DNA from: an uncultured Clostridia bacterium
Lineage (GTDB): Bacteria > Bacillota > Clostridia > Christensenellales > CAG-917
Assembly (NCBI GenBank): GCA_947581925.1
Contig: CANPWB010000006.1
Span: forward strand, 1 to 64,000
Length of the DNA: 64,000 nucleotides
Reading direction: 5' to 3'
Under the pieces are notes generated by a model. The model was given only the letters and a program-made list of their open reading frames with translations. It made no database searches and was not told the origin of the DNA. The number at the start of each line of letters is the position of its first letter. The first letter of the stretch is position 1. Positions 1,145-16,038 of this stretch are shown piece by piece. The position numbers and the translations under genes were made by a program.

Positions 1145-1164
1145 GATTTGTCGCAGAGGTGGAT

Positions 1165-2421
1165 ATGTATATCAAGAGAAATATAGAGTCGGTGCTTAAA
1201 CAGAGAGCAAAGAACAGCAGGTGTATTCTCGTTACGGGCGCGAGGCAGGTGGGGAAATCCACGCTGCTTAAAGAGCTGTATCCCGAAGTGCGCTACGTCA
1301 CTTTTGACGACAAGCTGTTGCTGAGTACCGCCATCGAGGACCCAAAACTCTTCATCAAAAATCTGCCAAAGCCTTCCATCATAGACGAGGTGCAGTATGC
1401 TGCTGAGATTTTTCCGTACATCAAAATGGAGTGTGACAAGCCCGGCATGTACGAAAACTATTATCTGACGGGCTCACAGCAGATGCGGCTGATGTCCAAA
1501 GTGCAGGAGTCCTTGGCGGGCAGGATCTCGATTTTGGAGTTGCAGGGTCTTTCCATGCGCGAACTCAACGGGATAGACTTCAACAGGCACTTTGTCCCGA
1601 CGGAGGAGTACATCGCCGCAAGAGAGAAGTGCATCAAACCGTATACTAACCTTTGGCAGACGATACATCGCGGCATGTATCCCGAAATTAACGTCACGGA
1701 GAGGGATTGGCAAGACTTTTATTCGTCATATGTGCGGACGTATTTGGAGCGCGACATCAAAGAGGAAATCGAGATAAAGGATACGCTCGCCTTCACGAGA
1801 TTCCTTTCGGCGATTGCGGCGAGGACGGCGCAAATGCTCAACTATGCGTCGGTAGCGCAGGACGTAGGCGTTACGCAGGCGACCATCAAAAATTGGGTGT
1901 CCGTCTTGGAGCGCACGGGGATAATCTTCATCTTGCAGCCGTACTATTCAAGCCACTTGACGCGCGCGATCAAGACGCCGAAGCTCTATTTCAGGGACAC
2001 CGGGCTTGCCTGCTATCTGTCCAAATGGAACAGCGCTGAGGCTCTCGAACAGAGTGCGGTCGCAGGGAATATGTTTGAAACGTTCGTCATATCCGAGATA
2101 TTGAAGTCGTTCAGCAACGAGGGGAGCGACTACACCTTCAATGTGTTTTACTATCGCGGCAAGGACAAAAAACGCACGAAAGAGAACGGCGAGATCTTCG
2201 AGGCGGAGAGCGAAATAGACCTCATCATCGAGGAGAACGGCACACTCTATCCAATCGAAATCAAAAAGAGCGCCAACCCCAACAAATCTATGGCGTCCGC
2301 CTTTGACGTCTTGGACAAGGACGCCGCCAAAACCCGTGGCATGGGCGCCATCGTCTGCCTGTACGACTCCAAACTGTACCTCTCCGACGACCTCGTCGTT
2401 CTGCCAATTGAGTACGTGTAG
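1165..2421 (+). CDS. ATP-binding protein, AAA_14/DUF4143 family
   Basis: N-terminal Walker A GARQVGKSTLL, Walker B-like PSIIDEVQ; C-terminal SEIDLIIEENGTLYPIEIKKS typical of DUF4143 ATPases. Confidence 0.9.
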   Translation: MYIKRNIESVLKQRAKNSRCILVTGARQVGKSTLLKELYPEVRYVTFDDKLLLSTAIEDPKLFIKNLPKPSIIDEVQYAAEIFPYIKMECDKPGMYENYYLTGSQQMRLMSKVQESLAGRISILELQGLSMRELNGIDFNRHFVPTEEYIAAREKCIKPYTNLWQTIHRGMYPEINVTERDWQDFYSSYVRTYLERDIKEEIEIKDTLAFTRFLSAIAARTAQMLNYASVAQDVGVTQATIKNWVSVLERTGIIFILQPYYSSHLTRAIKTPKLYFRDTGLACYLSKWNSAEALEQSAVAGNMFETFVISEILKSFSNEGSDYTFNVFYYRGKDKKRTKENGEIFEAESEIDLIIEENGTLYPIEIKKSANPNKSMASAFDVLDKDAAKTRGMGAIVCLYDSKLYLSDDLVVLPIEYV

Positions 2422-2442: not shown

Positions 2443-2472
2443 GTTGACAGTCGTATTTAATTTTGTTATTAT
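2443..2472 (+). promoter_or_regulatory. candidate promoter TTGACA-18-TATTAT upstream of the defence operon
   Basis: TTGACA at 2443-2448 and TATTAT at 2467-2472, 34 nt before the methyltransferase ATG. Confidence 0.5.
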
Positions 2473-2505: not shown

Positions 2506-3429
2506 ATGTCTGTCGAAATAGTGTCAAAAATGAAAAAAGGGTCTTTACCTGATATAAACGACGATCTTTTATTCTTAATAGATGTTGAGCGTTTTCTTGA
2601 TGCGCTTCCAGAAGAGCCGATTTTTGATTTGGTAGTTACTTCTCCTCCTTATAATATAGGCAAAGAGTACGAAAAGCAAGTTCCGCTAGAAGATTATTTA
2701 GTGTGGCAGGAAAGAATTATAAATAAAATTTATCCTCGTCTAAAAGATACGGGGAGTATATGTTGGCAGGTGGGAAATTATGTTGAAAACGGAAGCATAA
2801 CGCCTCTTGATATAGAAATCGCGCCTATATTTAAGAAATTGAATATGCATTTGCGAAATCGAATAATTTGGCATTTTGGACACGGACTTCATAACAAGAA
2901 TCGTTTCAGCGGCCGTTATGAGGTGGTACTGTGGTATACGAAAAGCGATAGCTATACATTTAACCTCGACGATGTAAGAATACCTGCAAAATATCCTGGT
3001 AAGCGTAGTTATCGGGGAGATAATAAAGGGAAACCTTCTGGAAATCCGAAAGGAAAGAATCCAGAAGATGTGTGGGATATTCCGAATGTAAAGGGGAATC
3101 ATGTTGAAAAAACGACTCACCCATGCCAATTCCCGGTAGGATTAATAGAACGTTTGATTCTCGCTTTAACAAATCCAAATGATTTAGTTTTTGATCCTTT
3201 TGCAGGAGTAGCCTCGTCAGGTGTAGCAGCTTTGCTCCACGATAGGCATTTTTGGGGATGTGAGATTGTAAAAGATTATATTAATATAGGTAAACTCAGG
3301 TTAGAACAAACGCTTGACAAAACGATTAAGTATCGTCCGTTTGATAAACCTATTTATGATCCAAGGACAAGTGCTTTGTCGAAAATACCCGATGAATGGA
3401 GGACATCTAATGAAGATTCAGATTTATGA
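2506..3429 (+). CDS. site-specific DNA methyltransferase, beta-class motif order (likely m4C or m6A)
   Basis: Motif IV TSPPYNIGKEY precedes motif I FDPFAGVASSG; SD GGGGAGG. Confidence 0.93.
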   Translation: MSVEIVSKMKKGSLPDINDDLLFLIDVERFLDALPEEPIFDLVVTSPPYNIGKEYEKQVPLEDYLVWQERIINKIYPRLKDTGSICWQVGNYVENGSITPLDIEIAPIFKKLNMHLRNRIIWHFGHGLHNKNRFSGRYEVVLWYTKSDSYTFNLDDVRIPAKYPGKRSYRGDNKGKPSGNPKGKNPEDVWDIPNVKGNHVEKTTHPCQFPVGLIERLILALTNPNDLVFDPFAGVASSGVAALLHDRHFWGCEIVKDYINIGKLRLEQTLDKTIKYRPFDKPIYDPRTSALSKIPDEWRTSNEDSDL

Positions 3430-3877
3430 TCATAGGAGCGGGTTAAAGGTAGTGCCCGAATATATAGTTAAAAACATAGAGGCTATCATAGAAAATGTTC
3501 ATCCTACTATTAAAAAAAATTCGGTTGCTACCTTAAAAAAGTTGGTTAGAAATCAAATGAAAAAAGAAGGATGGGTAGGAGAATATCGCTTGGATGCATC
3601 CTCTCGCATTACTATCTCATCTTATTTAGATGAAGTAGGTTTGTGTTTTCAAACAGGTAATTGTGGCCGAATATATGCTGACTTGCTTAAATTGCAAACT
3701 TTATATGTTAAAGGCAAGATTAAAGCCGGCATAATTCTTATTCCACAAAACAAAACAGCTGTTGAGCTTGGCGGAAATGTTGCTAATTATGAACGGGTAG
3801 TCAGAGAACTTCCAATTTTCAGTCAAGTGCTTACTATCCCTCTTGTAATAATTGGATTTGATGGAACGGAGGATTGA
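3410..3877 (+). CDS. BglII/BstYI-like type II restriction endonuclease
   Basis: Start at 3410 overlaps the end of the methyltransferase gene; LCFQTGNCGRIYADLLKLQTLYVKGKIKAGIILIP...NYERVVRELPIF..IPLVIIGFDG resembles the BglII family as I recall it. Confidence 0.75.
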   Translation: MKIQIYDHRSGLKVVPEYIVKNIEAIIENVHPTIKKNSVATLKKLVRNQMKKEGWVGEYRLDASSRITISSYLDEVGLCFQTGNCGRIYADLLKLQTLYVKGKIKAGIILIPQNKTAVELGGNVANYERVVRELPIFSQVLTIPLVIIGFDGTED

Positions 3878-3881
3878 AATT

Positions 3882-5159
3882 ATGAATGAACAAATTTATT
3901 GTTTTGGCTATCCAAATGAATTGAGAGAAATCAAGATATTCGAAGCGTTAAAAGATGATAGATTAGATAAACATTATATTAATTATCGTGGTAAATATAG
4001 ACCGATTCCAATCATAGAAGTACCAATTGAGCTTCCGGTTTATCGCATAGAAAATATTCGTACAAAAAGCCTTCAAAAAGAATGGCTGTCTCTTCATCCT
4101 GAAATTCCGAAGGATATTTTTATAGGGGATCCATATTCTATTGCAGCTCAAGAAACACAACATCAAATATTGAAAAAGTTAATTGATAAAGAAAATCTAT
4201 TTAAAACTTTCAAGAATGATGATAAGTTGCAACAGACGGAACCTTTAATATGTTCAAGCAATGGAACGGTTGTGAATGGGAATAGACGTCTTTGTGCTTG
4301 GAGAGAGCTTTATTATGGTGATAAATTTAAATATGCTCATTTCCAGTCAATAAGAATTGCTGTTTTACCCGACAATGATCCGCAAGGGATATATGATCTT
4401 GAAGTAGCTTTACAAATCAGTTCGGACATGAAGGCTGAATATGTTTGGCATGCTATTGCGGCTGATTATGTAGAAAAGTTTGAGGCTGGAGTGGACATCG
4501 GCGAGATAGCGCGAAGACAAAATAAAAAACCGGAAGATATTCGAATGTATATTGAGTGTTATCAATATGCCGCTCAATATTTAGAGACAATTGGGCAGCC
4601 TGACCAGTGGTCTATGGTGGACAAGCAGGAGTATGCTTTTAAACAGATAGTAATTGGGCGACAAAAAATTACCAATCCCGGCGATAAAGAACTCTTTCAG
4701 GAGATCGTTTATTCGTTGCTTCAGTCTCCTGTTTCAGGAGATAGGTTATATAAACAGATACCTAAAGTTGTTGCTAATTTAAGGGTTATTGCAGATCAGC
4801 TGAAAAAAAATTTAAATATCCAAGTTGACGAAAGTTCCGATGATGATCTTGATCTTTTGATGAGTGGAGACGAAACAACTAACGGGGAGGATAATGCTAA
4901 AATAGCAGCTGGAATTCGTTCCGTTAACGATCCATTATCAATTACAAAGATTGTGAATGATGTATTGGACAATGCAGACGAATTAGAAAAAGAGAAGAAG
5001 AAAAAAAGTTTCATTTTTGATCAAGTTTTTAAGGCAGCAACTTGTTTGACAAATGCTGTTTCTGCTTTGGATGATATTATGACCAAAGATGGGATTGCTA
5101 GACAGCTTGATAATATTGATGGCGCATGTTTAGTCCTCAAGGATTGGATAAAAAAATAG
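3882..5159 (+). CDS. ParB/sulfiredoxin-like domain protein
   Basis: Motif SSNGTVVNGNRRLCAWRELY resembles the ParB-like G-N-R-R box; charged helical C-terminus. Starts 4 nt after the endonuclease stop. Confidence 0.65.
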   Translation: MNEQIYCFGYPNELREIKIFEALKDDRLDKHYINYRGKYRPIPIIEVPIELPVYRIENIRTKSLQKEWLSLHPEIPKDIFIGDPYSIAAQETQHQILKKLIDKENLFKTFKNDDKLQQTEPLICSSNGTVVNGNRRLCAWRELYYGDKFKYAHFQSIRIAVLPDNDPQGIYDLEVALQISSDMKAEYVWHAIAADYVEKFEAGVDIGEIARRQNKKPEDIRMYIECYQYAAQYLETIGQPDQWSMVDKQEYAFKQIVIGRQKITNPGDKELFQEIVYSLLQSPVSGDRLYKQIPKVVANLRVIADQLKKNLNIQVDESSDDDLDLLMSGDETTNGEDNAKIAAGIRSVNDPLSITKIVNDVLDNADELEKEKKKKSFIFDQVFKAATCLTNAVSALDDIMTKDGIARQLDNIDGACLVLKDWIKK

Positions 5160-5160
5160 A

Positions 5161-6972
5161 ATGGAAATTAAAATAGAATATCTTAATAAATTAGAAAAAG
5201 TCCGAATGCGAGGGGACGCTTCGGATAGCTTTGCGTGGGGAGAATTATATCGTTTTATTTGCGATTATTTGCCGATGCAAATAGTAGTTTATTCCAAACG
5301 AGATATTAGCTTTCCATGGAGACATTTTTTAGCAATAAAAACTTATGTAGGGCAATTTTTCTCCGCACACCGAGATCAATTTAAGATTGTTTTTGACGAA
5401 ACAGCAAAAGCAATGTTAAAAAATGCAAATGCAAGCTCCTATAATTCAGCTTTGGCTCTAGAACATCGCGATATAAATGCAATATCTGAAAAGCTTGTGA
5501 GTATCGGTTTTTTACGCAAATTGACAGATTGCCAAATAAACAATCTAATAAAAATATCACAGCTACCCGGTGCTGCTACATTTTCTGTGCCTGGTGCTGG
5601 TAAAACAACTGAAGCGTTGGCGTTTTTCTTTATTAATGCATCTGAGTTTGACAGGCTTTTAGTGGTGGCACCGAAAAATGCTTTTGGTGCGTGGGAAGAG
5701 CAAATGGATGCATGTATGGGTGTAAACGAATTTAAATTTGTTCGACTCCAAGGTGGCGAAAGTTCAATAAGTACAATATTACAATCTAAACCTAGGTTTA
5801 TGTTGATTACTTATGATCAATTACAACGGGTTAAAAAGGTGATCGCCGAGACTCTCGCGGAAGGCAATGTTTTTATGTTCCTTGATGAGAGCCATCGCAT
5901 AAAAGGAGGAAAATCTGTTAAAAGAGCGGATGCTATATTGGAGTTATCTCATCTCCCTAAACGTAAATTAATAATGAGCGGTACTCCCATGCCTCAGAGT
6001 AGTAAAGATCTAATTCCGCAATTTTCATACCTGTATCCTACAAAAGATGTAACAGAAACAAATGTTATTAATTTGATACAGCCAATATATGTACGCACTA
6101 CGAAAGCGCAACTAGGAATACCGGAGCTTACACATAAAGTAGTTACCGTACAAATGCCGCAGATACAACGAGAAATATATAAAACACTTAAATCTGAAGT
6201 ACGAAGACAACTAGTGCCATATCTATCTGATGCCTCAAGAACTGAGTTACGAAGAATAGGAAAATGTATAATAAAAGTAATGGAGTTTGTGTCAAATCCC
6301 GCACTTTTAGCTTATGACATCGGCTTTGTCTTTGATCGTCGCTTGGGTGAATTACTTCTTCAGTCAGATGGTCCTAAAATTGAATATGTCTGTCGCCGCG
6401 CTAGAGAACTTGCTTCACAAAATAAGAAAGTTATTATATGGTCGTCTTTTGTCAGCAATGTTGAACTTATCGCATTGAGATTACGTGATTTGGGCGCAGA
6501 ATATATCCATGGTGGAGTTGATGCTGGAGATGATACAGATAGCGATACCAGAGAGGGGAAAATTAAACGCTTTCATGATGATCCGACGTGTATGGTTTTA
6601 GTGGCTAATCCAGCCGCTTGTTCTGAAGGTATAAGTCTCCATAAAGTTTGTCAGTACGCTATATATTTAGACCGATCATTCAACGCTGCTCATTATATGC
6701 AATCTGAGGATAGAATACACAGATTAGGTCTTGCACCAGATTCGCATCCGTGTATAGAATTTGTAGAGTGTGAAAATAGTATAGATCAAGTTGTACGTGA
6801 AAGATTGGCTTTTAAAGTAAACACTATGGCGCGCGCTTTGAACGATCCATCCTTGACCGTATCTATCGATGAGGTTGCATTTGATGAGGAAGCCGATGAT
6901 GTGGATTGCTTAACATCAGCAGATGCTCAAGCAGTACTTGATTATTTTTTCAGTGGAGATAATGATGATTAG
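5161..6972 (+). CDS. SNF2-type superfamily II helicase/ATPase
   Basis: SVPGAGKTTEAL (I), FLDESHRIKGG (II, DESH), MSGTPMPQSSKDLIPQFSYLYP (III), SEGISLHKVCQYAIYLDRSFNAAHYMQSEDRIHRLG (V/VI). Confidence 0.92.
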   Translation: MEIKIEYLNKLEKVRMRGDASDSFAWGELYRFICDYLPMQIVVYSKRDISFPWRHFLAIKTYVGQFFSAHRDQFKIVFDETAKAMLKNANASSYNSALALEHRDINAISEKLVSIGFLRKLTDCQINNLIKISQLPGAATFSVPGAGKTTEALAFFFINASEFDRLLVVAPKNAFGAWEEQMDACMGVNEFKFVRLQGGESSISTILQSKPRFMLITYDQLQRVKKVIAETLAEGNVFMFLDESHRIKGGKSVKRADAILELSHLPKRKLIMSGTPMPQSSKDLIPQFSYLYPTKDVTETNVINLIQPIYVRTTKAQLGIPELTHKVVTVQMPQIQREIYKTLKSEVRRQLVPYLSDASRTELRRIGKCIIKVMEFVSNPALLAYDIGFVFDRRLGELLLQSDGPKIEYVCRRARELASQNKKVIIWSSFVSNVELIALRLRDLGAEYIHGGVDAGDDTDSDTREGKIKRFHDDPTCMVLVANPAACSEGISLHKVCQYAIYLDRSFNAAHYMQSEDRIHRLGLAPDSHPCIEFVECENSIDQVVRERLAFKVNTMARALNDPSLTVSIDEVAFDEEADDVDCLTSADAQAVLDYFFSGDNDD

Positions 6973-7822
6973 ACTTACCGCTAATGTTATTTCAGCTGCA
7001 ATAACATTATTTCTACATATAGAGAAACGGCATATTGCCTCGTTTGTGAATATGACTTATTTCAAGATAGATGAGATAGCCATGAACGAGGTATTTGAGT
7101 TTTCTGCTAATTGTGGATGGGTAAAAACTGAAGAAGATATTCCGATACTTACTGATAGAGGGAATCTCATTTTGCAATTATATAAAGAGGCAAAGCCATA
7201 TCGACCGCATATGATTCAAGATTATATCGTTCAGTGCGCCCCAATATGGAGTAGCAGAATTCCGTATGGAAGGCAAGAGGCGTCTTTGTTTATGTCTGAC
7301 GATGAAAGAGCATGCTTTATTGAAGCAGGTTTACTGAATGACGATGTAGATATTAATGTAATAAGATGGTGGGATGAGTTGGCAGAATGCATCCGAAATG
7401 ACAGGGTGAATGAGAATATTAAAACAGGAAGAAGGGGTGAACAGCTAACTATGCTGTATGAACAAAAGAGAACGTGTGTGAATCCGAAATGGATGTCTAT
7501 CGAAAGTAATTTGGTAGGGTATGATGTTCAATCAGTTGTAGATAAAGATGTTAAAATCCCGCTTTTGATCGAAGTAAAAGCATCAAGTGGGAGTATATAT
7601 GAGGCTTGGTTCCATATAACAGCTCAAGAATGGAGAGTCGCGACGACTAGCAAGTTTTATGTATTTCATATTTGGCTATTATCGCCCAATAACAACAAGC
7701 TTGCCACGATTACACCCGACGAAATTACTCCGCATATGCCAACAAATAATTCTGATGGATTGTGGGAAAATACCAAAATTCCATACGCGAGTTTTGAAAA
7801 CAAATTTATTAGTATAGATTGA
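6962..7822 (+). CDS. DUF3883-like domain protein (predicted PD-(D/E)XK-like nuclease fold)
   Basis: GRRGEQLTMLYEQKR...NLVGYDVQSV...KIPLLIEVKASSG..EAWFHITAQEW is the DUF3883 pattern; ATG at 6962 overlaps the helicase stop. Confidence 0.75.
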   Translation: MMIRLTANVISAAITLFLHIEKRHIASFVNMTYFKIDEIAMNEVFEFSANCGWVKTEEDIPILTDRGNLILQLYKEAKPYRPHMIQDYIVQCAPIWSSRIPYGRQEASLFMSDDERACFIEAGLLNDDVDINVIRWWDELAECIRNDRVNENIKTGRRGEQLTMLYEQKRTCVNPKWMSIESNLVGYDVQSVVDKDVKIPLLIEVKASSGSIYEAWFHITAQEWRVATTSKFYVFHIWLLSPNNNKLATITPDEITPHMPTNNSDGLWENTKIPYASFENKFISID

Positions 7823-7833
7823 AGGTGCAAATT

Positions 7834-9960
7834 ATGGAAAAATATATTGCGAATTTAATTTCAGAATTTAAAAATTTTGCGTTAGAGGACATCTCTAATT
7901 TTTCCTATGAGGAAAAATTGTTGTGTCTGTACAGCTACTACCACTATTTTAACGCCGATAGTAGCAAAATTTCTGATGTGTTGCAGGGTGATATTTTTGC
8001 TGACAAATCACCTGATCATATTGCTGGAATTTATATTGATCATGAGTCTGATAATGATGATGTCGATGCTATTATAGTTGTTCAAGAACGGAATTTTGAA
8101 TTTCCTTCCATTCTGAAAATGTTTAAAGAAGCGGAGGCATATGCTTTTGATTCAAAAGATAATAAAGACGATACTCGTGCAAAACTCAGCAAATATTTTA
8201 GAGATGATGATTATCGGTTTTCAGATGCAAAACCACTAAAAATCAGATTGATTACAGATTACACACCAAAAACTTTGAATCAGAAGCGCGCAATTTTGAA
8301 TGCATTACAAGCGCTTGAGCCTGTGAATAAATGTGTGTCATATAGCATATCTTTCGGGTCAGAAATAGAATATGAAATTTTGGAAATAGAAAATCCAAAA
8401 GAATTTGTTGACAAAGCGGTAATTAAAATAGATGCCGTAGAAAACTGTGTCCGGTTTGGAACTGAAAAATCGCTTATTGCAAATATATCAGCGTATTCGC
8501 TGAAATATTTGTATGAGCAGTTTGGTTATAGAGGACTTTTTGCACAAAACTTAAGATATTATGTAAAAAACGCTAAAATTGATGGTAATATTATAGAGAC
8601 AATGCAAGAACATCCTGAAAACTTCTGGTATTATAACAATGGAGTTATCTTTATTTGCGATGATTATACAATTCAAGAGACGAGTATCATATTAAAGAAT
8701 TTCTCGATAATAAACGGCGGACAGACTACCAAGCTTATAGGGGAAACAGAGTTCCAGAATGATTTTTATCTGCAATGCAAGATTATAAAGAATAAATATG
8801 AAGATGAAGAAGAAAAGATTGATTTTATAGCGAATGTTGCTGAAGCCAGCAATACTCAAAAACCTATCAAAGATAAAGATTTAATTGCGAATAAACCGGA
8901 ACAAAGATTATTAAAAAGGCAAATGGCAGAGGTGGGGGTTTATTGCCAAATTAAGAGAGGAGAAAAAGTTAATAAAAAGCTTTATCCCTTGGCATGGCAA
9001 AATACTACAAATGAGGAAATCGGGCAATTTTTGTTGTCTTTTGTTTATCAAAAGCCTGGTACTGCTCGTGGGGGAAAAGCGACAATTTGCGGGAATAAAG
9101 AAAGATATTCGCTGTTGTTCGGGAAAAAGTATAATAGCGACTTATTGATCGATCTTCTTAAGATAAAAGCTTACTATAAACTTTGGGCTAATCAAGTAAA
9201 AAAAATGGATGACGGAAGTGATGAATATAAAGTTGGATTGATCAATAATGGTATGTTCTTTATGACGGCCATTATAGGGGCAATTTGCAAAATTTATTAT
9301 AGAAAAGATATATTGCGTCAGCTTTCTGCAACAATCATATCGGATCAAAAAATGGAGATTGTTTCTCAACATGATATTGACCATCATATTTTGGTTGAAC
9401 AAGATGATCAGAAAAACGCGATTTTTGCTTTGTTTGATTATTGCTATGTAAAATTTTATAGACCGGGTTATCAATTCATGAAATCATTTAAAGACCGTTA
9501 TAATAATTATTCGAACTTCACAAAAGTCAATAATAATTATTATACTTACGTTTTTAGACAGATCGAATTTGAATATCGCTCAGGTATACCGGAAGAAGAT
9601 ATGCAATTTCTAAGCGAGATTCTATATCATGCGACCGATACTGAATTGGAGAGGGATTCAAAACTTCTTGAAAAATATGTAAATGTTATTTCAAATGATC
9701 TGATGATAGACACCGGAGTTTCAGAGGAAATATCTGAATTAATCAAGGAGGAGCTTATTGCTTATAGGACAAGAACTTATAAGCTACATAGAATTAAAGC
9801 CTATGAAGTATTTAAAAATGTTGCATGCGAGAGAATTGCTAAATATGCGCCGCAAAGTTTAGAAGAACTAAAATCACTGAGATGTTTGGATGAAGCTCAA
9901 ATAATTTTGTATGGGGATGATATTATCAATATTGTCAAGAAATTTGTTGTGCGCAATTAA
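7834..9960 (+). CDS. AIPR (abortive infection phage resistance) family protein
   Basis: NLRYYVKNAKIDGNIIETMQEHPENFWYYNNGVIFICDDY...SIINGGQTTKLI is the AIPR hallmark; SD AAGGTG ahead of the ATG at 7834. Confidence 0.9.
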   Translation: MEKYIANLISEFKNFALEDISNFSYEEKLLCLYSYYHYFNADSSKISDVLQGDIFADKSPDHIAGIYIDHESDNDDVDAIIVVQERNFEFPSILKMFKEAEAYAFDSKDNKDDTRAKLSKYFRDDDYRFSDAKPLKIRLITDYTPKTLNQKRAILNALQALEPVNKCVSYSISFGSEIEYEILEIENPKEFVDKAVIKIDAVENCVRFGTEKSLIANISAYSLKYLYEQFGYRGLFAQNLRYYVKNAKIDGNIIETMQEHPENFWYYNNGVIFICDDYTIQETSIILKNFSIINGGQTTKLIGETEFQNDFYLQCKIIKNKYEDEEEKIDFIANVAEASNTQKPIKDKDLIANKPEQRLLKRQMAEVGVYCQIKRGEKVNKKLYPLAWQNTTNEEIGQFLLSFVYQKPGTARGGKATICGNKERYSLLFGKKYNSDLLIDLLKIKAYYKLWANQVKKMDDGSDEYKVGLINNGMFFMTAIIGAICKIYYRKDILRQLSATIISDQKMEIVSQHDIDHHILVEQDDQKNAIFALFDYCYVKFYRPGYQFMKSFKDRYNNYSNFTKVNNNYYTYVFRQIEFEYRSGIPEEDMQFLSEILYHATDTELERDSKLLEKYVNVISNDLMIDTGVSEEISELIKEELIAYRTRTYKLHRIKAYEVFKNVACERIAKYAPQSLEELKSLRCLDEAQIILYGDDIINIVKKFVVRN

Positions 9961-10400: not shown

Positions 10401-10423
10401 GGGGTTGCATGGATAGGTGGCGT

Positions 10424-12214
10424 ATGAATGAGAATGATTTGCGCAGAGAAATTGCCGAGTTGGAGAGGCGGATCGCCGAGCTGCCGAAAGGCTATATTTC
10501 GAAAAAGAATATAAGAGGCAAGGTCAGGTTCTATTTGCAATGGACGGAGGACGGCAAGAAAAAGAGCAAGTATGTCGATGAGTCGCTTGTTGAGGCTTTG
10601 CGCGCCTCGATAGAGGAGCGGCGGCGGCTGCAAGAGCGAGTGAAAACTCTTAAAGCGCAGTTGCCCATTGGCGCGAAAACAGTCAACAACAGTGATCTGG
10701 TATTCCAAACTACAGTGATATGCGGCGAGCAACTCAGGCAATTTGTCAAGCCCGTTGAAAATTACAAGCGGCGATTTTGCTTTAAGCAGCTGATCGACTA
10801 TTTATACGGCGACGCGCACGACAAAGTTTTGATCCTCTACGGACTGCGCAGAACGGGCAAGACCACGCTGATTCGGCAGGCGATTTCGGACATGACGGCG
10901 GCGGATCTCTCCAAATGCGCGTTCATTCAGATCCGCACGGGCAATACGCTCTCGCAAGTGAACGCCGATCTGCAATCGCTGTCGCGCGGCGGCTACAAAT
11001 ACATTTTCATCGACGAAGTGACGCTCATGGATGACTTCATCGAGGGCGCGGCGCTGTTTTCGGACGTGTTTGCGGCATGCGGAATGAAGATAGTCCTGTC
11101 GGGGACGGACTCGTTGGGCTTTGCCTTTTCGGAGGACGAACAGCTATATGACAGGTGTATTTTGTTGCACACGACGTTTATCCCGTATCGAGAGTTCGAG
11201 GGCGTTTTGGGCGTCAAGGGCATAGACGAGTATATACGCTACGGGGGCACAATGAGCATGGGCGGAGTCAATTACAACACGCCGACGACATTCGCGACCC
11301 CGCAAAGCACCGACGAGTATGTGGACAGCGCAATAGCGCGTAACATCCAACATTCGCTCAAATGCTACCAATATGAGGGGCATTTCAGGGCATTGCAGGA
11401 CCTGTATGAACACGGCGAGCTGACAAGCGTCATAAATCGCGTCATTGAGGACATCAACCACCGCTTTACGCTTGAAGTATTGACGCAAAATTTCGTTTCG
11501 CACGACCTCGGCATCTCCGCAAAAAATCTGCGTAGCGACAGGGAACATCCGACGGATATTCTCGACAGGATAGATAAAGAAGAAGTCACAAGGCGTCTTA
11601 AAGAGGCGCTTGAGATAAGAAACAGGGAAGAGCAGAGCGTCGCCATTTCCGATGTTCACAGAAAGGAGATAAAGGAATATCTTGACCTGTTGGATCTGAC
11701 CGTGGACGTCGAGATCCGCTCCATCCCCGCAAACAACAAAGTCGCCGTGAGAACGTTGTTTTCTCAGCCCGGCATGCGCTATTGCCAAGCGGAGAGCCTT
11801 GTCAAAAGCCTCATGCAGGACGCCACGTTTATGGACATTTCCGCGGCGGACAGAGCGGCGATCGTCGAGAGGATATTGGACGAGATTAAGGGCAGAATGA
11901 TCGAGGATATAGTCTTGCTAGAAACCAAGATGGCGCGCCCGCAACAGCAAGTGTTCAAATTGCAATTTGCGGTCGGCGAGTTCGATATGGTCGTCGTAGA
12001 CCCGACGCAAAACACTTGCGAGATCTACGAGATCAAGCACAGCACACAGCGCGTCCCCGAACAATACAAGAATTTGATTGATGAAACCAAGTGCCGCGAA
12101 ACAGAGTTTTACTTCGGCAAAATCACAAAACGCACCGTCCTCTACCGCGGTGCCACCACACCCCTCGGCCCCGTCGAGTACAAAAACATTGAGGAGTTTT
12201 TGTCCGATTATTAA
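10424..12214 (+). CDS. AAA ATPase with DUF4143-like C-terminal domain and N-terminal coiled coil
   Basis: LYGLRRTGKTTLIRQA (Walker A), YIFIDEVTLM (Walker B), C-terminal GEFDMVVVD..CEIYEIKHS; possible alternative start at 10409. Confidence 0.85.
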   Translation: MNENDLRREIAELERRIAELPKGYISKKNIRGKVRFYLQWTEDGKKKSKYVDESLVEALRASIEERRRLQERVKTLKAQLPIGAKTVNNSDLVFQTTVICGEQLRQFVKPVENYKRRFCFKQLIDYLYGDAHDKVLILYGLRRTGKTTLIRQAISDMTAADLSKCAFIQIRTGNTLSQVNADLQSLSRGGYKYIFIDEVTLMDDFIEGAALFSDVFAACGMKIVLSGTDSLGFAFSEDEQLYDRCILLHTTFIPYREFEGVLGVKGIDEYIRYGGTMSMGGVNYNTPTTFATPQSTDEYVDSAIARNIQHSLKCYQYEGHFRALQDLYEHGELTSVINRVIEDINHRFTLEVLTQNFVSHDLGISAKNLRSDREHPTDILDRIDKEEVTRRLKEALEIRNREEQSVAISDVHRKEIKEYLDLLDLTVDVEIRSIPANNKVAVRTLFSQPGMRYCQAESLVKSLMQDATFMDISAADRAAIVERILDEIKGRMIEDIVLLETKMARPQQQVFKLQFAVGEFDMVVVDPTQNTCEIYEIKHSTQRVPEQYKNLIDETKCRETEFYFGKITKRTVLYRGATTPLGPVEYKNIEEFLSDY

Positions 12215-12627: not shown

Positions 12628-13410
12628 TTATATGCCGTTCTTCATTCTTCTGAAAAAAGTGGCGCGACTTATGCCAAGCCTTTCGGCGGCTTCGGCGGCA
12701 CTGATTTGCCCTTGTAGAAAAGCTAATTTGTACTTGTCGAAGAGCAAGGGATCTACGGCGATTTGAGTTCGCCCTCTGTATGCCGATCTTGCCTTTGCTT
12801 CCTCAATGCCTCGCATGCGAGCGCGCTTGTTGCGCTCATATCCGTCAACATACAAAGGCATCAAAAAACGATAAAAGGTTTCTCTATTAGCATCGTTGAT
12901 CTCTATCTCTCTCGTTATGAGATAATCTCCCAGACATATTATAACGAGCAATCTTCTTATGAGAGCGTCCCTCCCGAAAGCCAAATCAAACATAGAAGTA
13001 TATCTCATTGTTTGAGGTCCGTTTTCAATCGGCATAATGAAAAATCTGTCACCGGAGTATCTTTTGTTTGTTTTTATTAGCCATTCCAAACGGTTCAGCG
13101 CGTTCATACCGTTTTCTTCAAGTAAAATCCTCACATCCTCCCTGTTTGGAGAGGGCGTTCTTTCGGCGATAAAAACGGGGACTTGGTTGCGTCTCTCATA
13201 AGTTGCTCTTCTCAGAGAGAGGTCTATTCCGGGAATGCCTTGAAAAAGATTATCCGGCAACATGTCTATAACGGCGTAATTCGGCGAGAAAATATATTCA
13301 AACTCTCCGTTTTCCCACTCCGTATAATCTATGCGCCCCACTCTATATATGAAGTGGTAGTCGTCCTCAAGGCAGATCCATCCCGATGTAGTCATACTTC
13401 TCATTTTCAT
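12628..13410 (-). CDS. hypothetical protein with C-terminal resolvase-like helix-turn-helix
   Basis: C-terminus RGRTQIAVDPLLFDKYKLAFLQGQISAAEAAERLGISRATFFRRMKNGI; start overlaps the stop of the upstream kinase gene (ATGA). Confidence 0.75.
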   Translation of the reverse strand: MKMRSMTTSGWICLEDDYHFIYRVGRIDYTEWENGEFEYIFSPNYAVIDMLPDNLFQGIPGIDLSLRRATYERRNQVPVFIAERTPSPNREDVRILLEENGMNALNRLEWLIKTNKRYSGDRFFIMPIENGPQTMRYTSMFDLAFGRDALIRRLLVIICLGDYLITREIEINDANRETFYRFLMPLYVDGYERNKRARMRGIEEAKARSAYRGRTQIAVDPLLFDKYKLAFLQGQISAAEAAERLGISRATFFRRMKNGI

Positions 13411-14261
13411 ATCTCCGTCAATTTGCTATATGCAGGCAACAGTATCTTTTCAAATCGTTGTTTCAACATATATTTGAAAAAGCGTTTATGCGTGTCGGTC
13501 ACAATCTCTATTTTGTCCACAAGCTTGTCGATCTTGCTTTGGTTATAGCGCTTGCAAACTTTTATTACCGCCGCATTACATTCATTATATTGCAAGCTGT
13601 TGATGACTTCAAAGTAAGAACTTTTGTCCCCATTTAATTTTACCTGCGACAGGGGAAATTTATATATCCTATCATTAGTCAGCTCTTCTGAGTTCATTAT
13701 CCTCTCCATCAAATCATCGTCTACAAGCTGTGGAAATAGTGACGAGCCGTTGTCAAATACGGGTGCAAGCGTATATTTGTTATGCTGTTTAAGAAAGCCC
13801 CAATTCGCACCGTGTCTATCGAAATTGCCGATCAGCGCGTCTACAACGTACATCTCCCAAAACCTATCCACCGTTTCTTGCACGTCGGTCAGCTTAGTGT
13901 TGTCTCTGAGCATAAGCATGATGTCATCATAAGAGTATTGATATGTGTCCTTGTCGCGTTCAAGCGAACTTTCACCAACGTCGTTGAAGGGTACGAATTG
14001 GACATCTTTGGTAATAAAATTTTTGCACGCAACCACTTCCTCGCCATCATATGTGCCGAGAAATGTTTCGTGGACATTAAACCCAAGCAACTCATAGACG
14101 TGAGATCCTAAATATTCGCACACATGATTGCACCGCCTCTTCATAGGTGTGTCTATGCGGAATTTGAGCATGTATTCAAACCCACCGATAGATATGCCAA
14201 TCTTCTTTTCCGACCCGCCATAGAATGTGTTTGTCTTAGGGTAATTAGTATAGTCGATCAT
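13407..14261 (-). CDS. HipA/CtkA-like serine/threonine kinase
   Basis: VVDALIGNFDRHGANWGFL and APVFDNGSSLFP are the HipA-like catalytic/metal-binding motifs. Confidence 0.85.
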   Translation of the reverse strand: MIDYTNYPKTNTFYGGSEKKIGISIGGFEYMLKFRIDTPMKRRCNHVCEYLGSHVYELLGFNVHETFLGTYDGEEVVACKNFITKDVQFVPFNDVGESSLERDKDTYQYSYDDIMLMLRDNTKLTDVQETVDRFWEMYVVDALIGNFDRHGANWGFLKQHNKYTLAPVFDNGSSLFPQLVDDDLMERIMNSEELTNDRIYKFPLSQVKLNGDKSSYFEVINSLQYNECNAAVIKVCKRYNQSKIDKLVDKIEIVTDTHKRFFKYMLKQRFEKILLPAYSKLTEI

Positions 14262-14575: not shown

Positions 14576-14923
14576 TTAAAGCACTTGTTCTGTAGCGCCC
14601 GTCGCGCCGGTTGCGCCTTGTGGACCTGCGGGACCCTGCGGGCCGACTGCGCCTTGTGGACCTGCGGGACCCTGCGGGCCGACTGCACCTTGCGGACCGA
14701 TAGGTCCCATTGGTCCTTGTGGGCCGACGGGGCCGGCGGGTCCGGGGATATACGAGGTCGTTATGCCGCAGCATCTCGAGGGCGTAAAGCCGACAGACCC
14801 TCCGCCGAAATAGGGGGTAGGCGAACCGCCTTGTCCGCATCCGCAGCCCGAAGAGTAGCCGCCTCCGAAGAATGAGCCGCCTCCGCACCCGCAATTTGAA
14901 GAATTACCGAAGTTGAAAAACAT
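14576..14923 (-). CDS. short collagen-like (Gly-X-Y) repeat protein with Gly/Cys-rich N-terminus
   Basis: [60 protein letters not shown] supports start MFFNFG at 14923; two 36-bp tandem DNA repeats. Confidence 0.85.
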
Positions 14924-15579
14924 GTCTGAAACCTCCTTAAAATTTATGTACATGCCGTCATGAGGTCCCGACTTTTTATAAGCGCTATCATTTGTCTATT
15001 CGCGCCCGCCCAATTTATTTCTCGCATAGCGTTTTTATGTCTTTATCTGCCGCCTTTTGCGCAAATTATTTGCGGTTTTGCGCTTCTCCTATGTATGTCG
15101 CGTTTGTATGTTTGCTTCCACGCTCAACCTTTACGCCGGAGTGGGTTTAAGCTTGCACATTAATCCTTGTTCGGCGAGGTTAGCCGTAATTGCTGTGCGT
15201 ATGCCGCACGCGTCCGTCTGCTATATACTATTCAATATAGCGCTAGGGCGTGCAAGTGGCGGCGGTCGCGCTTTTAAGATTTTTGCGCATCGCGGCTTTG
15301 AGCGAATTTGCGGCGTAAGACCGGTATATATATAAAGTTGAAATATGTGATCTCTACGCTTGCCAAGGTCATCGAAAAATTTTATAATATAAAAATAAAA
15401 AGATACGCTTGTTGAGGAGATGTAATAGGAATTATAAATCGACAGATCATAAAAATTCGATGGGATAAATTATTTGCGAAAAATTCAAAATAACAGAATA
15501 GTTCGGCGTCGGGTTTTTGTGTATCGATAGAATATGACGCTCATTTAATGGCTTAAAAATAAAGTAAGGAGTAAAAAAG

Positions 15580-16038
15580 ATGCTGAGAGAATATTTTATT
15601 TGTGCCGGGAAAGGATATGGCCAAAGCAAATTGAACAGCTTTGATGAAGCGTTGAGAGACGCCGGTTTAGCCAACTATAATTTAGTAAAAGTAAGCAGCA
15701 TTTTACCTGCTGGTGTCGATCGAAAACCCCATGTAACGATTCAGGAGGGAAGTGTGCTGTATACTGCCTATGCGAGCATCTCATCCAGTTGTCCGGGAGA
15801 TGTGGTATCTGCTGCAATAGCAGTCGGCCTTCCATTGCAGAAGGAGAATATCGGTGTGATAATGGAATACTCCGGGAAGTGCGATGAGGAATGTGCGCGC
15901 CGATCGGTTTGTTCAATGGTAGAAGAAGCGATGAGGAACAGGGGATATGAGATCAAAGAAATACTATGCTATGCCACATCGACCGAAGGGCGAGCAGACA
16001 TATCTTCTACCGCTTTTGCCGCTATAGCAATGTGGTAA
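15580..16038 (+). CDS. pyruvoyl-dependent arginine decarboxylase family protein
   Basis: LNSFDEALRDAGLANYNLVKVSSILPAG with the Ser-Ser self-cleavage context; IMEYSGKCDEE; AFAAIAMW C-terminus. Confidence 0.9.
   Translation: MLREYFICAGKGYGQSKLNSFDEALRDAGLANYNLVKVSSILPAGVDRKPHVTIQEGSVLYTAYASISSSCPGDVVSAAIAVGLPLQKENIGVIMEYSGKCDEECARRSVCSMVEEAMRNRGYEIKEILCYATSTEGRADISSTAFAAIAMW

Follow-up and report, generated by a model that had tools for sequence, protein, structure and literature searches.

A widespread five-gene cassette that couples a BglII-fold protein without catalytic acids to ParB-fold, SNF2 and DUF3883 proteins: a candidate ATP-dependent restriction-modification system

We analysed a stretch of 64,000 nucleotides (nt) of contig CANPWB010000006.1 (positions 1 to 64,000; hereafter the window, on whose scale its features are numbered) that carries six adjacent genes. 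In order, these encode a DNA methyltransferase (MTase), a protein of the BglII/BamHI fold (designated R), a ParB-fold protein, a SNF2-family ATPase, a DUF3883/NOV_C protein and an AIPR-HRDC protein. The first five constitute one widespread, co-inherited cassette, while the sixth is an accessory gene that was acquired by one Clostridia lineage. At a probability of about 0.6, we propose that the five genes form one ATP-dependent restriction-modification (R-M) system in which a nuclease-dead R would be the reader, the ParB-fold and SNF2 proteins would be clamp and motor, and the DUF3883 protein would be the cutter.

Results

Five genes are inherited as one cassette

Relatives of the ParB-fold gene were found in a Clostridia genome (G042, locus L010) and on a plasmid of Paracoccus denitrificans (L007), and in both the first five genes stand in an identical order, with no AIPR gene. 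A scan of a genome collection with an alignment of R yielded 61 loci from Bacillota, Pseudomonadota, Bacteroidota and several other phyla, many of them contigs of metagenome-assembled genomes whose single placements may be misbinned; one locus, L056, is from the same species as L007. The comparison set comprised 64 loci, including the window. In all 54 that have more than 4.8 kb of sequence after R, the genes for R, the ParB-fold protein, the SNF2 ATPase and the DUF3883 protein follow each other in this fixed order, and in 52 of 62 loci the gene directly upstream encodes a homologous MTase of the N4/N6 type. The pairwise distances of the five proteins are correlated (0.86-0.97, against a permutation maximum of 0.41). 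This co-travel has its exceptions, namely the replacement of the MTase by a C5-cytosine MTase (C5-MTase) in one clade and some relatives of the module that lack R, both of which are described below. The preliminary description of this DNA had named independent recombination of the genes as evidence against a single system; such recombination was observed for AIPR, and not for the other five genes.

R has a BglII fold and lacks the canonical catalytic acids

The AlphaFold model of R was confident (predicted local distance difference test score, pLDDT, 93.5), and its significant matches in the Protein Data Bank (PDB) were BstYI, OkrAI, BglII and BamHI only (E 1e-9 to 2e-7). The query-normalized TM-score (TMq) was 0.86 for BglII (1d2i) and ranged from 0.63 to 0.86 over the type II relatives. 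In the PD...D/ExK scheme of restriction endonucleases (REases), metal is bound by the two acids, and the third position can be taken by E, as in BamHI, or by Q, as in BglII (PMC4081073). Sequence alignments placed C79 of the window protein at BamHI E111 and BstYI E128, and Q81 at BamHI E113 and BstYI Q130. Among 57 aligned members of the family, column 79 is occupied by Cys (30), Gln (25) or His (2), and column 70 (S70 in the window), the place of the metal-binding Asp, by T, F, S or V but never by an acidic residue; the canonical D...E-x-Q/E arrangement is absent from all 57. The only columns that are acidic in at least 90% of the members are D91 and E133, both located in predicted helices of the model. 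Judged by these columns, catalytic activity has very probably been lost from R throughout the family. The earlier assignment to a BglII-like family was upheld by both the Pfam match (Table 1) and the modelled fold, while the accompanying label of REase is very probably wrong as regards activity.

The reading of R as a decaying remnant was rejected, since the dN/dS ratio (nonsynonymous to synonymous substitution rates) was 0.02-0.12 for pairs with estimable dS, which indicates purifying selection, and since the family has 12 invariant columns, with Q81, G83, N84, R87, D91 and K94 retained in 57 of 57 members. One of the two patterns used in the genome scan included column 79, which may have biased the search towards Cys or Gln at that position. 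Two further searches counter such an artefact: a scan of viral contigs with a pattern lacking column 79 again returned only C or Q there, and a profile-based search across 399 genomes from the phylum of the window returned one more five-gene member, with Cys at 79, and five other matches. Three of these five belong to two-gene systems of an MTase and a BstYI-type protein, which keep D...E-x-Q and have no module attached. No relatives of R were found in 50,697 phage records.

The other four proteins retain the motifs of their families

The model of the ParB-fold protein (pLDDT 88.8) matched Noc, ParB and KorB best (probability 1.00, E 1.6e-3 and up, target-normalized TM-score 0.35-0.63, with partial coverage), and it consists of a ParB/Noc/KorB-like N-terminal and helix-turn-helix (HTH) region and long C-terminal helices. 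The window protein has no Pfam match, yet ddrB-ParB was matched in 22 of 54 relatives, which, together with the fold, confirmed that the third gene had been correctly called ParB-like. A GNRR motif is present in 58 of 58 homologues; we take it to be the counterpart, with Asn in place of Glu, of the GERR motif found in ParB CTPases. This protein is predicted to be a clamp or adaptor. The GAGKT, DESH and HRxG motifs of the SNF2 protein, a predicted motor on double-stranded DNA, are intact and vary little or not at all among 65-66 homologues. In the DUF3883 protein, E153, E160, D181, E197 and K199 are kept in 59 of 59 sequences, and E153, D181 and E197-V-K199 make up an intact motif of the PD-(D/E)XK type; DUF3883 has been named a novel REase domain (PMC3710099), and we predict from the motif that this protein is a nuclease. 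Lastly, the MTase contains a TSPPY motif and is thus probably of the N4-cytosine or N6-adenine type, with a predicted role in the protection of self DNA.

A proposed mechanism and its alternatives

In the mechanism that we propose, the MTase would methylate the host's own sites, and the non-catalytic R, as the predicted site-recognition subunit, would read a site that is unmethylated. Bound there, R would load or license a clamp, the ParB-fold protein, and a motor, the SNF2 ATPase, both of which would move on the DNA, and cutting would be done by the DUF3883 protein. The recognition sequence would then be set by R, and the system would presumably serve against phages.

The exchange of the MTase in some loci amounts to a natural experiment that bears on the seat of specificity. 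Nine of the ten loci without the homologous upstream MTase have a C5-MTase gene in convergent orientation immediately downstream (in L032 recognized by BLAST), and the tenth, L025, has an N6/N4 MTase gene in that position. L037, which was too short upstream for the count of 62 loci, also carries the C5 gene. A C5-MTase abuts the operon in ten loci. In a tree built from the four core proteins, this variant is compatible with a single origin. R was kept when the MTase gave way to one with C5 chemistry, which speaks for R as the constant reader.

Several observations weigh against this mechanism. The module also exists without R: an MTase of the same family precedes the ParB-SNF2-DUF3883 genes directly in L126 and L127 (Table 1), the MTase gene follows the trio in L097 and L129, and in L012 the order is C5-MTase-ParB-SNF2-DUF3883-HNH. 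Specificity might therefore reside in the MTase or in the HTH of the ParB-fold protein, and these loci are the main weakness of the proposed role of R as reader. Furthermore, the activity of the DUF3883 protein is deduced from its conserved motif and a single domain assignment in the literature. In a separate look at genomic avoidance of palindromes with a GATC core, as a possible guide to the recognition site, AGATCT was low, but unrelated palindromes were low as well.

The R-less loci, most of which have a DUF3883 gene besides ParB-SNF2, differ in layout. In L011, a C5-MTase gene is divergent from the ParB-SNF2 genes, and most of these loci have an MTase gene in or near them, while L009 does not. 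In four alphaproteobacterial plasmids, the trio is directly preceded by a gene for a protein of 280-319 amino acids, here called protein X, with many invariant Cys, His and Trp residues; two of the four loci are near Vsr and C5-MTase genes. Protein X showed no similarity to Pfam families, to solved structures in the PDB or to the R profile (0.3% probability), and was consequently rejected as a divergent R. Taken together, the ParB-SNF2-DUF3883 trio looks like a portable restriction engine to which R is one attachment. As a separate observation, the MTases of L126 and L127 have an insert between the KNPEDV and IPNVK motifs, and L126 adjoins a relaxase gene.

The R-less operons of L126 and L127, and the C5-MTase beside the trio in L012, are what would be expected if the system were type III-like, with the MTase as the specificity subunit that recruits the SNF2, ParB-fold and DUF3883 proteins, and the dead R as an accessory, such as a stabilizer, regulator or reader of the methylation state. 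We regard this alternative as unlikely: in the clade that has R, this protein is under strong purifying selection and has kept its BglII-family fold, and its retention when an unrelated C5-MTase replaces the MTase is easier to understand if R rather than the MTase reads the site. Less likely again is that R still cuts through a non-canonical active site once activated by the SNF2, ParB-fold and DUF3883 proteins, in the way that H.CglI activates R.CglI. CglI and NgoAVII set a precedent for an R that relies on a helicase-like ATPase (PMC4267653), and Q81 and D91 are indeed invariant; on the other hand, both canonical acids are missing throughout the family, D91 is helical in the model, as is E133, and an intact nuclease motif is available in the DUF3883 protein.

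AIPR is an accessory gene

The preliminary description had taken all six genes as one defence system, with AIPR as its abortive effector. AIPR directly follows the DUF3883 gene in the window, L015 and L016, and according to the tree it was probably acquired once. However, AIPR was present in only four of the 50 loci with room for it, all of which fall in one Clostridia clade, and in the fourth, L014, it is truncated beside a complete five-gene cassette. (The locus nearest to the window, L013, ends at DUF3883 and is uninformative in this respect.) This distribution rules out AIPR as a core component. The N-terminal acidic motif reads DVDAIIVVQE in the window, DVDAVIAVYSE in L015 and DLDFVVAVGCE in L016, in each case without the following lysine expected of a PD-(D/E)XK site, so that the nuclease may be degenerate; the window copy in addition has a C-terminal HRDC domain. 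With AIPR absent from 46 of 50 loci, and the lysine from all three full copies, a six-gene composite with an abortive effector is most improbable, and we found no support for abortive infection here. Pfam and PADLOC call the first two genes a type II MTase and REase, but an ordinary type II R-M pair that happens to adjoin unrelated defence genes is equally implausible, given the fixed five-gene order, the correlated distances and the catalytic loss in R.

Layout of the locus

As first described, the six open reading frames lie on the same strand (Table 1) and are closely spaced, with overlaps of 20 nt (MTase/R) and 11 nt (SNF2/DUF3883) and gaps of 4 nt (R/ParB), 1 nt (ParB/SNF2) and 11 nt (DUF3883/AIPR). 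Most of the six starts are preceded by a Shine-Dalgarno-like sequence, and for AIPR there is an alternative in-frame TTG start at 7819, which would overlap the DUF3883 gene. A strong promoter-like site lies ahead of the operon, and the AT-richness of the block was confirmed: the GC content of the six genes is 0.32-0.38, compared with 0.514 for each of the ATPase genes at its sides and an average of 0.482 over the window. A search for repeats bounding this block gave nothing convincing.

Genes for AAA_14-type ATPases flank the operon on either side, of which the left one (AAA_14-DUF4143) matches the PADLOC candidate PDC-S01 at 2.7e-100 and the right one does so more weakly. Further downstream are a possible HipA-like pair, in which the gene for a HipA_C-domain protein overlaps a gene whose product ends in an HTH, and a gene for a small protein with collagen-like triple-helix repeats that adjoins a gene for a pyruvoyl-dependent arginine decarboxylase.

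Table 1. Positions of the operon, of its neighbours and of related genes in other loci.
Feature	Sequence	Position	Strand	Remark
Sigma-70-like promoter	window	2444..2472	+	TTGACA-17-TATTAT, extended -10, 11/12 matches; by consensus match alone; ahead of operon
MTase	window	2506..3429	+	N6_N4_Mtase PF01555, 3.3e-53
R, BglII/BamHI-fold protein	window	3410..3877	+	ATG start; Endonuc-BglII, 3.5e-7
ParB-fold protein	window	3882..5159	+	ATG start; fold and relatives' ddrB-ParB matches
SNF2-family ATPase	window	5161..6972	+	SNF2-rel_dom, 6e-19
DUF3883/NOV_C protein	window	6962..7822	+	PF13020, 1.8e-8
AIPR-HRDC protein	window	7834..9960	+	ATG start; AIPR PF10592, 1.2e-32; HRDC, 7.7e-6
AIPR	L015	9213-11348		
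AIPR	L016	14408-16561		
R-less MTase-ParB-SNF2-DUF3883	L126	6824-11693		
R-less MTase-ParB-SNF2-DUF3883	L127	325-5386		
Protein X	L005	8946-9788		
Protein X	L006	8949-9794		
Protein X	L008	8934-9800		
Protein X	L009	599-1558		
AAA_14-type ATPase, left	window	1159-2421		AAA_14-DUF4143
AAA_14-type ATPase, right	window	10409-12214		
Protein ending in HTH	window	12628-13410		
HipA_C-domain protein	window	13407-14261		7.6e-17
Collagen-like protein	window	14576-14953		PF01391, 2.8e-9
Pyruvoyl-dependent arginine decarboxylase	window	15580-16038		

Discussion

If the proposed mechanism is true, many loci that now carry the annotation of an ordinary type II R-M pair, its REase being of the BglII type, encode a different, ATP-dependent machine, in which a type II REase has been repurposed as recognition subunit and a ParB-fold protein has been brought into restriction. 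The prediction of a dead R and a live DUF3883 protein is directly testable by point mutants. A bolder proposal, to which we would give slightly less than an even chance, is that this is a new class of R-M system, in which a domesticated, nuclease-dead REase licenses a ParB-type clamp and a SNF2 motor for cutting by DUF3883, and in which the portable engine pairs with different readers and MTases.

Comparison with known systems

The type II systems of BglII, BstYI and BamHI have in common with the cassette an MTase of PF01555 and an R of the same fold. However, their two-gene relatives keep an intact REase site, whereas here R is without the catalytic acids and, wherever the sequence is long enough to tell, invariably accompanied by ParB-SNF2-DUF3883. 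CglI and NgoAVII consist of an MTase, R and a DEAD-family ATPase, and perform ATP-dependent R-M (PMC4267653, PMC5737866). An operon with an MTase, R and a separate ATPase, and presumed ATP-dependent restriction, is found here as well, but those systems have three genes and their R is the endonuclease, while the cassette has five, with DUF3883 and a ParB-fold protein in addition to an R without catalytic acids. As in type I and type III systems, recognition, superfamily 2 motor and PD-(D/E)XK nuclease appear to be separated; here, the recognition candidate is a pseudo-REase instead. Neither HsdS nor HsdR was found among the six proteins in Pfam, PADLOC and NCBIfam scans, nor were Mod-Res proteins, the SNF2 protein matching ResIII weakly (1.6e-5).

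DISARM, Zorya, BREX and Dpd share a SNF2-type ATPase with the cassette, and DISARM and BREX also an MTase, but their signature genes are absent here. DrmA, DrmB and DrmC of DISARM, and ZorA-ZorB with ZorC/ZorD of Zorya, were not found, and the SNF2 protein scored 36.7 of the required 610 bits for DrmD and 17.4 of 1500 bits for Zorya in NCBIfam. Membership in DISARM, Zorya or Dpd via this protein was thus rejected (17-37 bits against cut-offs of 500-1500 for DrmD, DpdE and ZorD). Closer in its parts are the R-M operons listed with the HEPN family Ava_2192 (PMC3710099), in which a SNF2 helicase and a DUF3883 REase domain are likewise paired; there they are fused and have a HEPN/AAA partner, while here they are separate and accompanied by the ParB-fold protein and the pseudo-BglII protein.

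PADLOC 2.0 has no family for the ParB-fold gene and gave R no more than a weak match, as a type II REase, NCBIfam names no system, and the five-gene set is not described in the open-licence literature that we searched. The set is thus apparently uncatalogued. These scans bore out the original view that it is unlike the catalogued systems tested, and the fixed gene order the view that an R-M pair is here combined with an ATP-driven module. We regard the cassette as a variant R-M system that stands a fair chance of forming a class of its own.

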